The notes below the pieces were generated by a model that did no database searches, was not told where the DNA came from, and worked only from the letters and a program-made list of their open reading frames with translations. From NCBI GenBank assembly GCA_029945375.1, contig CM057063.1, positions 434,001 through 498,000 on the forward strand: a DNA stretch of 64,000 nucleotides, in the 5' to 3' direction. Source of the DNA: Agaricus subrufescens (lineage: Eukaryota > Basidiomycota > Agaricomycetes > Agaricales > Agaricaceae). Positions 11,926 to 39,240 of the stretch are shown here, in pieces; the stretch's first letter is position 1; every line of letters begins with the position of its first letter. A program made the translations under genes and the position numbers.

Positions 11926-13117
11926 ATGCCAACAAACAACCTAAGACAGGTCCACAGGGCAAGCTTATGTTGGAGTTTAACAAGACTAACTCCGCCCTTC
12001 ACTGCACAAGATGAATACATAGTAATTCTCTCGGTAATCATCACCTTTCGATCCTGATTTCCCTGTTAGCGACAGGTAGAGGTATCAGTAAAGAACAGAC
12101 TACAACCTGACAGGAAATGGACGGAACAATCACACGAACTTTTATCAAAAGATGTAATGCTTATTTCTCTGTCTGAATCATTTGTATTTTACTTATCCAT
12201 GTCGCCCTATGATACCCAGCTGAATAAGATATTCCCCGATGTGTTTAGGCATCCAGCGGTCAAATTAGCATCACTAAAATTCGCTCGAGCCTCCTTCGGT
12301 CGTCGTAGAACTTCATTTTTGCAACGCAAAAAGAGGAAATGCAAGCATAGGGAAGTAAACCGAGTCGTTGTAAGTCTTCACCCTTCTGACTTTTCAAGCT
12401 ATTTTTCAAATTTCTTGATATAAGAGTGGAGCCGAAAGATTGGCAATAATAGAGCCAGGGCCAAGGCTCCCCGCTGTGACCCGCCAGCGACAAACTCAAG
12501 CAGACGCAGGCCCTAGTTTCCTCACAATTCCGCCTCGTGCTGTCGCATTTTCAATAAGCACATACTTCATTGCATCAACGTACATGCAAAACATTATAAA
12601 ATATCATAAAGAATATGGAATACAGCAGCATCCACTCAAGATAAATAGTGCTCAAAGACCGGTATCAACTCAGGACCTGGGCCACATTCAACAGCCTGCA
12701 CTACCAACTACTCCATTTAATTCATTACTCACAGCCCCTCGAAGTGCACCAGCTAGCGAATTCCAAAATCCTCGTGACGATGAAGTTTCGGACATAAATA
12801 TACCAACACCCATGGAAGCTACTGCCGATTCTGAAACAAGTCCCATTTTCAGTGGTAGTGAAGAGGTTGACAGTGGGATGCGGGAAGTGGAGGTATTCCT
12901 TGAGAACTGTAGCCCACCCATGCTACATCATCTCAATTCTTTCGTCAGAGCTGGAGTGAAGAATGGAGCATACTTGAAAGCAGTCGGCCATCTCTGTGAG
13001 GTGGATTCAAATGCAATGTCATTGATCTTGCAACCTAGTGACCTCAGTGTGGTCGATTCTATTCTCCTTCGGGATAGCCTACATAGATGGGTAGAGGAGA
13101 GAAGTAGAATAATGTGA
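11926..13117 (+). CDS. 'FLxxCxPxM' family member A, function unknown
   Basis: Four exons (11926-12021, 12070-12153, 12220-12369, 12425-13117) all join at phase 0 and give 340 residues. Exon 1 encodes a 32-residue start ending LTPPFTAQDEYI. Exon 2 is a 28-codon helix with VSVKNRL and KWTEQSHELLSKD. Exon 3 opens LNKIFPDVF and has a basic helix with SFGRRRTSFLQRKKRK. Exon 4 begins with EPGPRLPAVTRQRQ, runs through a Ser/Pro/Thr linker, and ends in the module REVEVFLENCSPPMLHHLNSF, then FVRAGVKNGAYLKAV and SVVDSILLRDSLHRW. The basic exon and disordered linker suggest a nuclear protein, which is inference. It is the tandem partner of copy B, with starts 1,990 bases apart. Exon calls rest on agreement with B, since each short exon has the same length and phase in both. 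Confidence 0.8.
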
Positions 13118-13439
13118 CTCGGGAGTAATCAATATGCTTTTGATGTGAATGAAACAGGCATATAGATGGAGCATACTACTTTCACTGAAATGAATACTCT
13201 AATCCAATGATGCCATTAGCGAACTCAGGCAGCAGATGGGAGCTACGAAGGAAGATTATCACGGTACACTTTTCCGGTATCAACCAGACAAGCAGGGAAA
13301 CCACTTGAATTCCTACCAAAGACCGCGTCTATAAAAATAATTCATAAAACAAAAAGACGTACAAAGAGCGACAGCAAAAGAGAAAACTCCCGAAAAATTT
13401 GTCGATCATACTATCTTCACGCCCTTCTTCAAATAATGA

Positions 13440-13683
13440 GTATATCCTGTTGCCAAGCCTCACCAGTCCTAAACTTTCCCTCGGCCTATCCTGCCCTGGA
13501 TGATCTTAGGACATTACCCCTTTGAGCCGCCAAAAACACCGGATCAAAATGTCCCTGTATCTCCATCTCACTGCCGGCGCTGCCGCCCCGATAAAAAAAA
13601 AAGTCGTTGCACAAGTTTCCTATATATAGACAATTTCCGACCATTATGTGCTGAACAGTAAATTTGAACAGTAGAGGAAGCAC
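13440..13683 (-). pseudogene. decayed copy of the last exon of the CPSF6-like gene
   Basis: Read on the minus strand, this stretch gives IQGHFDPVFL, then an in-frame stop, then AEGKFRTGE. The intact last exon of the CPSF6-like gene at 18927-19078 gives MQGHFNPAFM followed by PRKRFRSAEGQ. At DNA level the shared pieces include CGGATCAAAATG-like and CCTCGGCC(C/T)(A/G)TCCTG-like runs in the same order and spacing. The copy is frameshifted and has a stop, so it is not coding. It lies between family copies A and B. Confidence 0.75.
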
Positions 13684-36206: not shown

Positions 36207-37381
36207 TCAAAACCTCGCCATCGAACTCGATGTCGATTTCGATTTTGTAGTGAGTGAAACCTTCTTCAAACCCTCTTTCAGTACCCATATATCCATTTCC
36301 GTGACCACAACCTCAGACGAGATATTTCTGGCTATTTTTCTTAGAACATCATCCACACGTTCATCGGAGTATCCAGCCAATGCAACCAGAAAATCTCTAC
36401 TGCGACAGCCAAACTCGATAAAGGCGGGAAGGAAATACGACATGTCGGGAATACACATGCGCAAAAAATTTGCTACTTCTTCAGCACGAGTTTGAAGGGA
36501 CTCTGGAAGGGGACCCAAAGGGATGTGAGGGGTCGATTCGACGAGAGTCGTCGGGGACGCAGGAATACTTGGAGAGCGAGGTTCGGGTGAAGGTGGAATT
36601 TCTGGTATAGTGTTGGGCTCCGATGACGTTTTGATACGTCCCGTCGGTGGCGTGGGGAGTGCAGTAGTATCAGTTGTACCTAAAGTAGATCACATTGTCA
36701 GTAGCGTCGAGCAGATCAAATATGATTCATTTTACTTGAAGATGTTGAAGGAGCGTCCTGAGGCAAACTGAGTTTCGATCGGTCGTATGATTGCCCCCAA
36801 TTTCCCCTTCCGAGCTAAGAATATATATGTAACTCCATTTTGAAAAGAAAGGATGATAGGAAAACAAACGCACCCGTTGCCGATATTCATTTACAGTCCT
36901 TCCGGTAACCAGTCCATCGGCTCTGGCCTCTCTCGTCAAAGTTCTCTGGTGTGAAAACCGACGCCGAGCGTATTGATACACCGCGGCCATTCGTCGTTTT
37001 CGCTCTGAGTTAGTCCATAGAGGATTATTCAGTAACTGCGGAAATTGTTCAAGCATCTATAAAAAAAAATACGTCCCTGTCAGAAATGGAGTTGATCGGT
37101 GGGTAAATACCTACTGCTCTGTCGAAGCTATCCAAGGTGCTGCGAGGTTGAGAGTCGAAAGAGAGACCAAGATCGAACGTGTCATTGAGTGTCTTCATGA
37201 TAATTTTCTGTATCGTAAAATCTCATGTGGTTGACCGATATCTTGACAGGGGACTAGAAACGCACTTTCAGCTGTCGCGGTATCGTCTTATCTTCCATCC
37301 CGAAAATCAGATCCAATTCTACGACTCTTTATCAGATGGAGGATATACGTTGATGAATTGTGGATAAGTACGGGTGGCCAT
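36207..37381 (-). CDS. 'FLxxCxPxM' family member E
   Basis: Five exons (37381-37349, 37207-37115, 37056-36874,36814-36736, 36679-36207) join in phase and give 286 residues. Exon 2 is 31 codons (KIIMKTLNDTFDLGLSFDSQ, ending LDSFDRA), as in C, D and F. Exon 3 opens MLEQFPQLLNN and has the basic helix RKRRMAAVYQYARRRFSHQR. A Pro/Ser/Thr-rich linker follows (SEPNTIPEIPPSPEPRSPS). The C-terminal module reads EEVANFLRMCIPDMSYFLPAF, GCRSRDFLVAL and TEMDIWVL. The HF-x-x-YF ending of C and F is replaced by KEGLKKVSL, and the last 15 residues are a Ser/Thr/Lys tail. Member D is the next family gene, upstream on the same strand. Function unknown. Confidence 0.78.
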
Positions 37382-38015
37382 GGTCAACGTCGGGGAGTTA
37401 AGTAGGAACGCAAAGCCAGTAGAAGGTTGTATCCCTCTTTCTGGACGGGTGTCAACGGACTCGTGTGTTAGAGTATGGGGAATTTCCTCTCGTGCCACAC
37501 AAACGTAGTAGTGCGGTGTCTAAAGAGCTAGCGGCGGCAGGGTTGCCGCTGAGTAAATTCTCGGGAATCATACACGCGACAAGGAGTTTGATGCCCCAAA
37601 TGAATGTTTGATTACTTGCTATCGGTGGGCTGATACGTTTATTGTCCAAAAGAGGTGTCGATAATCGATATGATAATCCATATATGTGTGACATTTTTCA
37701 ATGTTATTGTACGAACAGAGAATGAACTCTCACGAGACTGATTGATGTGCTGAATTAAAACTCTTTATGCCAGCACGAGGCGACACGAGGATGTTTCGAA
37801 GACTCTTGGGAAGCATAACTACCACAATTAACCCAGTTGATTACGTTGATGTCTGAGTTACAACCGTTTGCCATTGCTGATTCGTATGTGGTCAGTTAAT
37901 GCCACCAACAGCACCGCTTCAACCATAGGGATGAACATATCCTACTTTGACTGAGAGTATTTATATTGCATTTATATTGGCCTTGGGGTGGCCACCTACC
38001 AGTAGTGACTACACA
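37382..38015. other. intergenic between family members E and D
   Basis: 634 bases with no supportable exon. It contains a doublet, TTTATATTGCATTTATATTGG, at about 37961-37981. Confidence 0.5.
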
Positions 38016-39240
38016 TTAGATCGAAGGAAATAAACTTAAGTGGCGAATACTGGCCTTCTCTTCCTTTTTTGGGGAGTACTTCGATGAGTCGAAGGGCGTG
38101 TCACGGATATTTATTTCGTGTTTAATGGCTTCATGCTTAATCGGTTCATGTTTCACTAATTCACCTTTGATTTCCGGCAGTTCATGTTTAACTTGTTCGC
38201 CTTTGATTTCCGGGGGCTCCTGTTTGATCATTTCATGTTTGACTGCTAGAGTCTCCCGCTTGATTAGTTCATGTTTGACCACCAGAGTTTCCTGTTTGAC
38301 TGGTTCGTGTTTGATTGCCGACGGCTCATGCTTGATTGACTCCTCTTTGATGAGTTCGCGTTTAAAGGGTTCAAGTTTAACGACGCCTGAGCGTGGAACT
38401 GAGGGGAGTGTACCTGATGGGGACGATAGAGCTGAAATTGTTGGACAAAATTCTGACGGCTCTTCTTTCACAGTAAGGTTTTGCGATGGGCTGCTGGTAA
38501 GGTGTTGGCTTGGAGTCGATGATTGAGCAGCTGGTGATCGTGGCAGCGGGACAGGTGAAGAAGGAGCTGGAGAAAGGGTAAGGGATATTCTTTCCGTCTT
38601 GACCGCTGTCAACCCTTGAGTTGTAATTGAGCGAGTAACTCGACGAGAGGTAGTGATTCTTGGCACCACTCGCCGTTGGGTTGGTCTTTTTGTCACTCCT
38701 TTGGTAAGAGGAGGTGTGGACAAGGCAGGAGAAGCGGCGCGCTGGTAAAACAAATGTTACTTCATGAAATAATCAGGTTCGAAAGATTATCGCTCACACG
38801 ATTTTTGAAGCGCATGTTTTTGCTATCCGATCGAGCACCAAATGATTCGAGGAAGTCGTTTCTGCGATAGTGGTTGAAATGTTGGCAACAATACTTGAGG
38901 ACAGCTTTCATCTTTGCCTGTTGTTCTTCAGTTGTCAACGATGTAGCCTGAAGAATATCCGGATATTCTTGGCTTATCTATTCAACGTTACTACTCCATG
39001 TCATACAAAGATAGAACAACCGAACCCCTTCTGAGAATTCAGTGATTTTTTCTTCTGCTTGATTGCGGTAAGTCTTGTATGGATCCAGCGTTTGCTCGGA
39101 AAGTCGTTTGATCCTCTCCTAGGAATTGTGTCAATAACAATGTCTCGAGAATCAGCGTATCCTATTTGTACCCTCAATTCCTCAAAGCGCGGATTACCTT
39201 GTCTCATACCGAGCCGCTCGGCAAAACTAGGGATGTCCAT
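38016..39240 (-). CDS. family member D with an array of SUMO-consensus motifs
   Basis: Four exons (39240-39172, 39118-39026, 38977-38798, 38741-38016) join at phase 0 and give 355 residues. Exon 2 is the 31-codon helix (ERIKRLSEQTLDPYKTYRNQ, ending KITEFSEG). Exon 3 opens ISQEYPDILQ and has AKMKAVLKYCCQHFNHYRRN, closely matching member C. Exon 4 is different from the rest of the family. After a basic Thr/Arg-rich stretch and a Ser/Pro linker, it carries about eighteen psi-K-x-E motifs between roughly residues 160 and 325 (VKTE, VKEE, VKLE, IKEE, IKHE, VKQE, VKHE, IKGE and so on). The spacing is often 8-10 residues. It lacks the FLxxCxPxM module. Psi-K-x-E is the consensus for SUMO conjugation, so the tail looks like a poly-SUMO acceptor. 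That is inference from motif density. Confidence 0.78.

Follow-up and report, generated by a model that had tools for sequence, protein, structure and literature searches.

We analyzed a window of 64,000 nucleotides from Agaricus subrufescens (contig 7, positions 434001-498000, of an assembly of 44.65 Mb in 44 contigs), in which six genes dispersed over 28 kb, here named A to F, form what is, judging from their sequences, a real gene family. The C-terminal end of five of the six (A, B, C, E and F) is formed by a homologous module of about 80 residues, for which structure prediction indicates a SAM-like fold missed by Pfam. The sixth gene, D, carries in its place a tail of likely, putative SUMO attachment sites.

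Homology of the C-terminal module was assessed with a profile built from two further family members, G and H, and containing no window sequence. Against a background of 2597 window open reading frames (ORFs) of at least 15 residues each, this profile retrieved F (E 7e-21), E (8e-17), C (5e-11), B (7.5e-8) and A (1.8e-4), and no other ORF scored below E 2.9. The sequence-only reading had assigned the module to exactly these five genes; by the profile test their sharing it is far beyond chance, and D lacks it, as that reading had claimed. Alignment columns F7, L8, C11, P13, F22, G26, L33 and D66 are invariant in all nine module sequences compared, namely those of A, B, C, E, F, G and H, of the Agaricus bisporus protein AGABI2DRAFT_177131 (P0001), and of a metagenome protein (P0002, from a JGI metagenome) related to the fourth exon of B. 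R or K stands two residues past G26 in eight of the nine, and the modules are 25-44% identical to that of F.

When F's module was used as a genome query, it found seven places, comprising the five window genes, G on contig 3 and H on contig 12. The modules of C, G and H matched nothing outside this set in the genome, and the last exon of B gave one additional match only, containing stop codons (E 2.7). Gene D was reached by its N-terminal exons, which match C too. Since the genome searches scored only the best candidates, the family comprises at least eight members, of which six were detected within 28 kb and two (G and H) on other contigs. The latter were modeled likewise and have the same exon order as the window members.

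The module of F is predicted to form a compact five-helix bundle (helices 2-9, 16-24, 30-37, 41-51 and 64-77) with a long C-terminal helix. Corresponding predictions for the A. bisporus protein place helices at 216-228, 235-244, 249-256, 260-273 and 282-300, with one further helix before them. The structures nearest to both models were solved SAM domains, matched over most of their length (the best 15 of 36 matches for F, and the best 4 of 28 for the A. bisporus protein), although the Foldseek E-values of these matches alone are not significant. A comparison of the modules with known folds, as proposed together with the sequence-only reading, thus gave a predicted SAM-like fold at the C-terminal end. 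A profile-profile alignment with SAM (hhalign) scored 24.3, whereas the reversed profile scored 12.2 and none of 150 column shuffles went above 15.1. Two results weigh against a SAM-like fold: the HH probability of this profile match is 37%, over 30 columns, and single SAM sequences were not separable from unrelated chunks, the background not being exceeded.

Neither SAM_1 nor SAM_2 of Pfam matched any of eight proteins scanned (five window proteins, P0001, G and H; A was not scanned whole) or, at E values up to 10, any of the nine modules. In genome scans the same two models had matches elsewhere and none at the family genes. Because these models miss it, we name the module SAM-like and do not file it as SAM. 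In fact, no Pfam model of any kind reached the cut-off in the eight proteins. Canonical SAM domains are present in the same genome at two loci (L014 on contig 8 and L013 on contig 4); one is of the Vts1 type, with VTS1 as its best PDB match (4e-19), and the other is nearest to the SAM domain of diacylglycerol kinase delta (2e-7).

The tail of D contains 18 (V/I/F)KxE motifs in 241 residues. The sequence (V/I/F)-K-x-E is the SUMO consensus. Sixteen of these motifs form an 89-residue array that has no lysine outside a motif. The K and E are invariant while both codons of each are used, and x is one of seven residues across the 18 motifs; such constancy of K and E beside a variable x suggests that the motif has been under selection. 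Shuffled tails had 0.59 motifs on average and five at most (10,000 shuffles), a comparison that overstates the case, since a 36-bp tandem repeat makes up part of the array. None of the linkers of the seven other members counted contains such a motif.

Evidence for a shared N-terminal block is uneven among the genes. A profile of the N-terminal regions of C, P0001 and D found the basic exon of E (E 4.6e-5, the next unrelated window ORF at 1.2). After G and H were included, the profile scored exon 2 of F at 0.034, the corresponding stretch of A at 0.56 and that of B at 4; as an unrelated ORF reached 0.63, the values for A and B are background. A profile of G and H alone gave marginal scores for two exons of F (0.017 and 0.024). 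Used as queries, the N-terminal exons of B matched themselves alone and did not recover A, and the exon of E and the N-terminal exons of G, as single queries, likewise gave self-matches only. The N-terminal block that had been proposed for all six genes is thus upheld by sequence for C, D, the A. bisporus relative and the basic exon of E, whereas for A, B and F it is only plausible, by position and exon layout. What ties the weak members to the family at this end is the order of exons, the phase-0 introns and the 93-nt exon 2 common to C, D, F, G and H. Every one of the nine sequences counted has a net positive exon 3 (+3 to +14); Ser, Thr and Pro abound in the linkers, and the net charge of the module lies between -5 and 0 in all eight copies counted. 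The nucleic-acid role that the sequence-only reading suggested for the basic helix may fit the charge of exon 3 and stays conjectural.

Gene models were built from reading frames, sequence and splice sites, and every junction used is GT..AG (Table 1). They bear out six genes at the positions and on the strands first proposed, with some corrections. Each of the models of A to E has four exons, and that of F has three plus the probable exon 1 upstream. Exon 2 measures exactly 93 nt in the models of C, D and F, and G and H, first modeled with 90 nt, reach the same length when their acceptors are moved 3 nt upstream by eye. Introns between the N-terminal exons are in phase 0, although this is not independent evidence, as the exon models were picked by frame. 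The single exon order ascribed to all six genes holds as a shared layout but not in full for E, which has an extra phase-1 intron in the linker and no clear charged exon 2; the charged exon claimed for it is unclear, its first exon scoring E 1.4 at best with the profiles. In addition, a start of C at 23877 could not, in our reading, be joined in frame with the conserved exon at 23965, and after its module C reads EMDLLVV instead of the EMD-x3-L described. A conserved DNA block lies 5' of A (11790-11872, forward strand) and of B (13792-13874, forward strand); it reads ISQALEI... and resembles FSQAIPTKFNADIGRVLK of F. An upstream exon within this repeat (D3) is probably the genuine first exon of A and of B, and in A the frame in which it would join the next exon is provisional.

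Table 1. Gene models of the family members in the window and features within them (window coordinates)
Feature	Span	Strand	Exons or parts	Support or remarks
Gene A	11806..13117	+	probable exon 1 11806-11865; 11926-12021; 12076-12153; 12220-12369 (basic helical); 12425-13117 (linker and C-terminal module from ~12875)	splice-consistent model from 11926 on; DNA repeats with B; module found by outside profile, 1.8e-4
Gene B	13808..15123	+	probable exon 1 13808-13867; 13916-14011; 14083-14142 (acceptor uncertain); 14214-14360; 14419-15123 (linker and module from ~14872)	splice model; DNA repeats with A; P0002 match to exon 4
Gene F	16786..17785	-	probable exon 1 17785-17729 (read by eye); exon 2 17668-17576 (93 nt); exon 3 17510-17268; exon 4 17211-16786	splice model; module matched by that of G at 2e-14 (genome search); predicted five-helix fold
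SAM-like module of F	16789..17034	-		modeled alone, mean pLDDT 85, pTM 0.73
Gene C	23965..25014	+	23965-24042; 24099-24191 (93 nt); 24239-24379; 24436-25014 (linker and module from 24763)	splice model; full-length A. bisporus relative; 5' end provisional before 23965
Gene E	36207..37198	-	first exon 37198-37115 (weak); 37056-36874 (basic helical); 36814-36736 (extra linker exon); 36679-36207 (linker and module)	splice model; module 8e-17, basic exon 4.6e-5 (profiles)
Gene D	38016..39240	-	39240-39172; 39118-39026 (93 nt); 38977-38798; 38741-38016 (tail without SAM-like module)	splice model; C matched by exon 2 (E 5e-3) and exon 3 (3e-5) in genome search
Array of 16 psi-K-x-E motifs in D	38115..38381	-		89 residues, partly 36-bp tandem repeat; two more motifs upstream in the tail

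Of similar modules, which the sequence-only reading took to be frequent in agaricomycetes, searches of the protein databases used here returned two relatives in all. One is P0001, which matches C along its full length (56% identical over 99% of the query) and which its source lists as a 'hypothetical protein' with no assigned function; among the papers searched, none names it together with its species. The other is the metagenome protein, which is 72% identical to the last exon of B and 53% to that of A. A tree of the nine modules joined C with P0001 (98/97), set A, B and the metagenome protein apart (100/100) and left E, F, G and H unplaced. The five window modules do not form one clade in this tree, and its starred branches force at least three label changes; only two of its six inner branches are starred, however, and E sits on a long branch. 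A and B are a tandem pair 2.0 kb apart, with 71-72% DNA identity in three blocks. Their ratio of nonsynonymous to synonymous substitution (dN/dS) is 0.44 (NG86) or 0.54 (YN00) for exon 4, 0.44 for exon 3 and 0.25 for the module (dN 0.25, dS 1.02). Given that the metagenome protein is closer to B than to A, the split between the two is not very recent. Of the repeated tandem duplication and scattering that had been suggested from the local clustering, the A/B pair is one instance; the pairing of C with its Agaricus relative and the lack of one window clade, in contrast, indicate mostly old paralogs and not one recent burst.

Twenty ORFs around the cluster were scanned, and none points to a function of the family. 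They include a urease, a DUF4112 gene (15622-16212, reverse strand, between B and F), two MFS transporters and an F-box-like match just under the cut-off. A fungal NLR-like gene is represented by a NACHT (NPHP3_N) ORF followed by ankyrin-repeat ORFs (47908-54614, forward strand), and an ORF with Ty3-type capsid and gag domains lies at the window end (62619-63938, forward strand). A Gly/Met-rich frame at 19540-20785 (reverse strand) has a 24-bp tandem repeat at 19678-19725 and, upstream, the sequence 'ALYVGDL', which we take to be an RNP-like motif, so that this is perhaps an RNA-binding protein; Pfam had no match in the single frame tested there (19540-19896).

Among the closest known systems is LEAFY, whose N-terminal SAM oligomerization domain (PDB 4ude) is 10% identical to the module. 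In LEAFY the SAM domain is N-terminal, beside a DNA-binding domain, whereas the family has its SAM-like domain at the C-terminal end, together with a helical region as the second module. Polyhomeotic, Scm and TEL (ETV6) differ in another way, as none of the proteins scanned has a zinc finger, MBT, ETS or Pfam SAM domain at the cut-off. Vts1 and Smaug are comparable in that Vts1 likewise places such a domain in a fungal protein, and a Vts1-type SAM is encoded in the same genome; the family module, however, has no Vts1-like sequence signature or Pfam match, and its charge is neutral to acidic.

According to the mechanism that we propose, the family would consist of small proteins in which a flexible Ser/Thr/Pro linker connects a basic helical module at the N-terminus to the SAM-like domain at the C-terminus. 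The proteins would be nuclear, the basic helices of the N-terminal module would hold a nucleic acid or chromatin partner, and the SAM-like domain would join molecules, so that several weak contacts sum to stable occupancy, as in LEAFY or Polyhomeotic. Different paralogs may mix in these assemblies. A candidate interface is given by the conserved charges, namely the R or K two residues past G26 and D66; the polarity of the two presumed interface regions looks reversed relative to LEAFY. Gene D keeps the N-terminal module and would enter assemblies through SUMO and SUMO-binding partners, or else would cap or compete with the SAM-linked paralogs. The reading we tentatively favor, at somewhat less than an even chance, is one of nuclear proteins assembling by a SAM-like tail as LEAFY does, with D possibly doing so through SUMO. 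A bolder version, which we hold to be unlikely, is that the same nuclear N-terminal module has been paired with two interchangeable self-assembly devices, a diverged SAM-like domain (A, B, C, E and F) or a poly-SUMO-acceptor tail (D). The family would then consist of fungal chromatin or transcription assembly factors in which multivalency was rebuilt by different chemistry, and D would couple assembly to SUMO signaling.

Other explanations make different use of the same domain. Were it a nucleic-acid-binding helix-hairpin-helix, a BAF-like domain or a Vts1-like RNA-binding SAM, both ends of the protein would touch DNA or RNA, with no self-association. The charge of the module and the missing Vts1-like Pfam match speak against this, and folds of the helix-hairpin-helix, BAF and Vts1 classes score below the SAM structures for F; we regard it as distinctly improbable. 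The same low standing applies to cytoplasmic signaling adaptors like Ste50, Ste11 or Byr2, in which the SAM-like domain would dock a kinase or a canonical SAM and the basic exon would bind a membrane or a partner. Known SAM proteins of fungi include many such adaptors, and the canonical SAM domains of the genome are possible partners, but no RA, kinase or PH domain was found in the proteins scanned, and the basic clusters of exon 3 read like nuclear signals.

The remaining explanations concern the fate of the locus. A partly decaying family, in which C (perhaps also F, G and H) works and A, B and D are remnants or pseudogenes, would account for the 5' exons of A and B that cannot be joined in one simple frame, the shifted acceptor needed in B, the failure of B's N-terminal exons to recover those of A, the lack of the domain in D, and the fairly relaxed A/B ratios of exons 3 and 4. 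We give it a very low probability, as the terminal exons are long open frames, B has a relative in a metagenome, the A/B module ratio is about 0.25, and K and E of the D motifs are kept through synonymous differences. Least probable in our view are members of a fast-evolving locus of genetic conflict or non-self recognition, held together by local selection. The clustering on both strands, the high divergence of the modules, and the NACHT, ankyrin and F-box-like genes of the window would fit; C, however, is conserved in Agaricus, A/B dN/dS is below 1, the NACHT ORF is more than 8 kb away, and the F-box match does not reach the cut-off.

For assembly through a SAM-like tail, LEAFY offers a precedent in which the fold is hidden from sequence and assembly affects access to closed chromatin (PMC4844672). 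If the reading we favor is true, it would explain a family annotated as 'hypothetical protein' and provide a testable mechanism of tail assembly. It would also suggest that fungi have SAM-like domains below the reach of sequence models, as plants do in LEAFY. Gene D would then be a natural swap experiment, in which one N-terminal module is served by two routes to multivalency.

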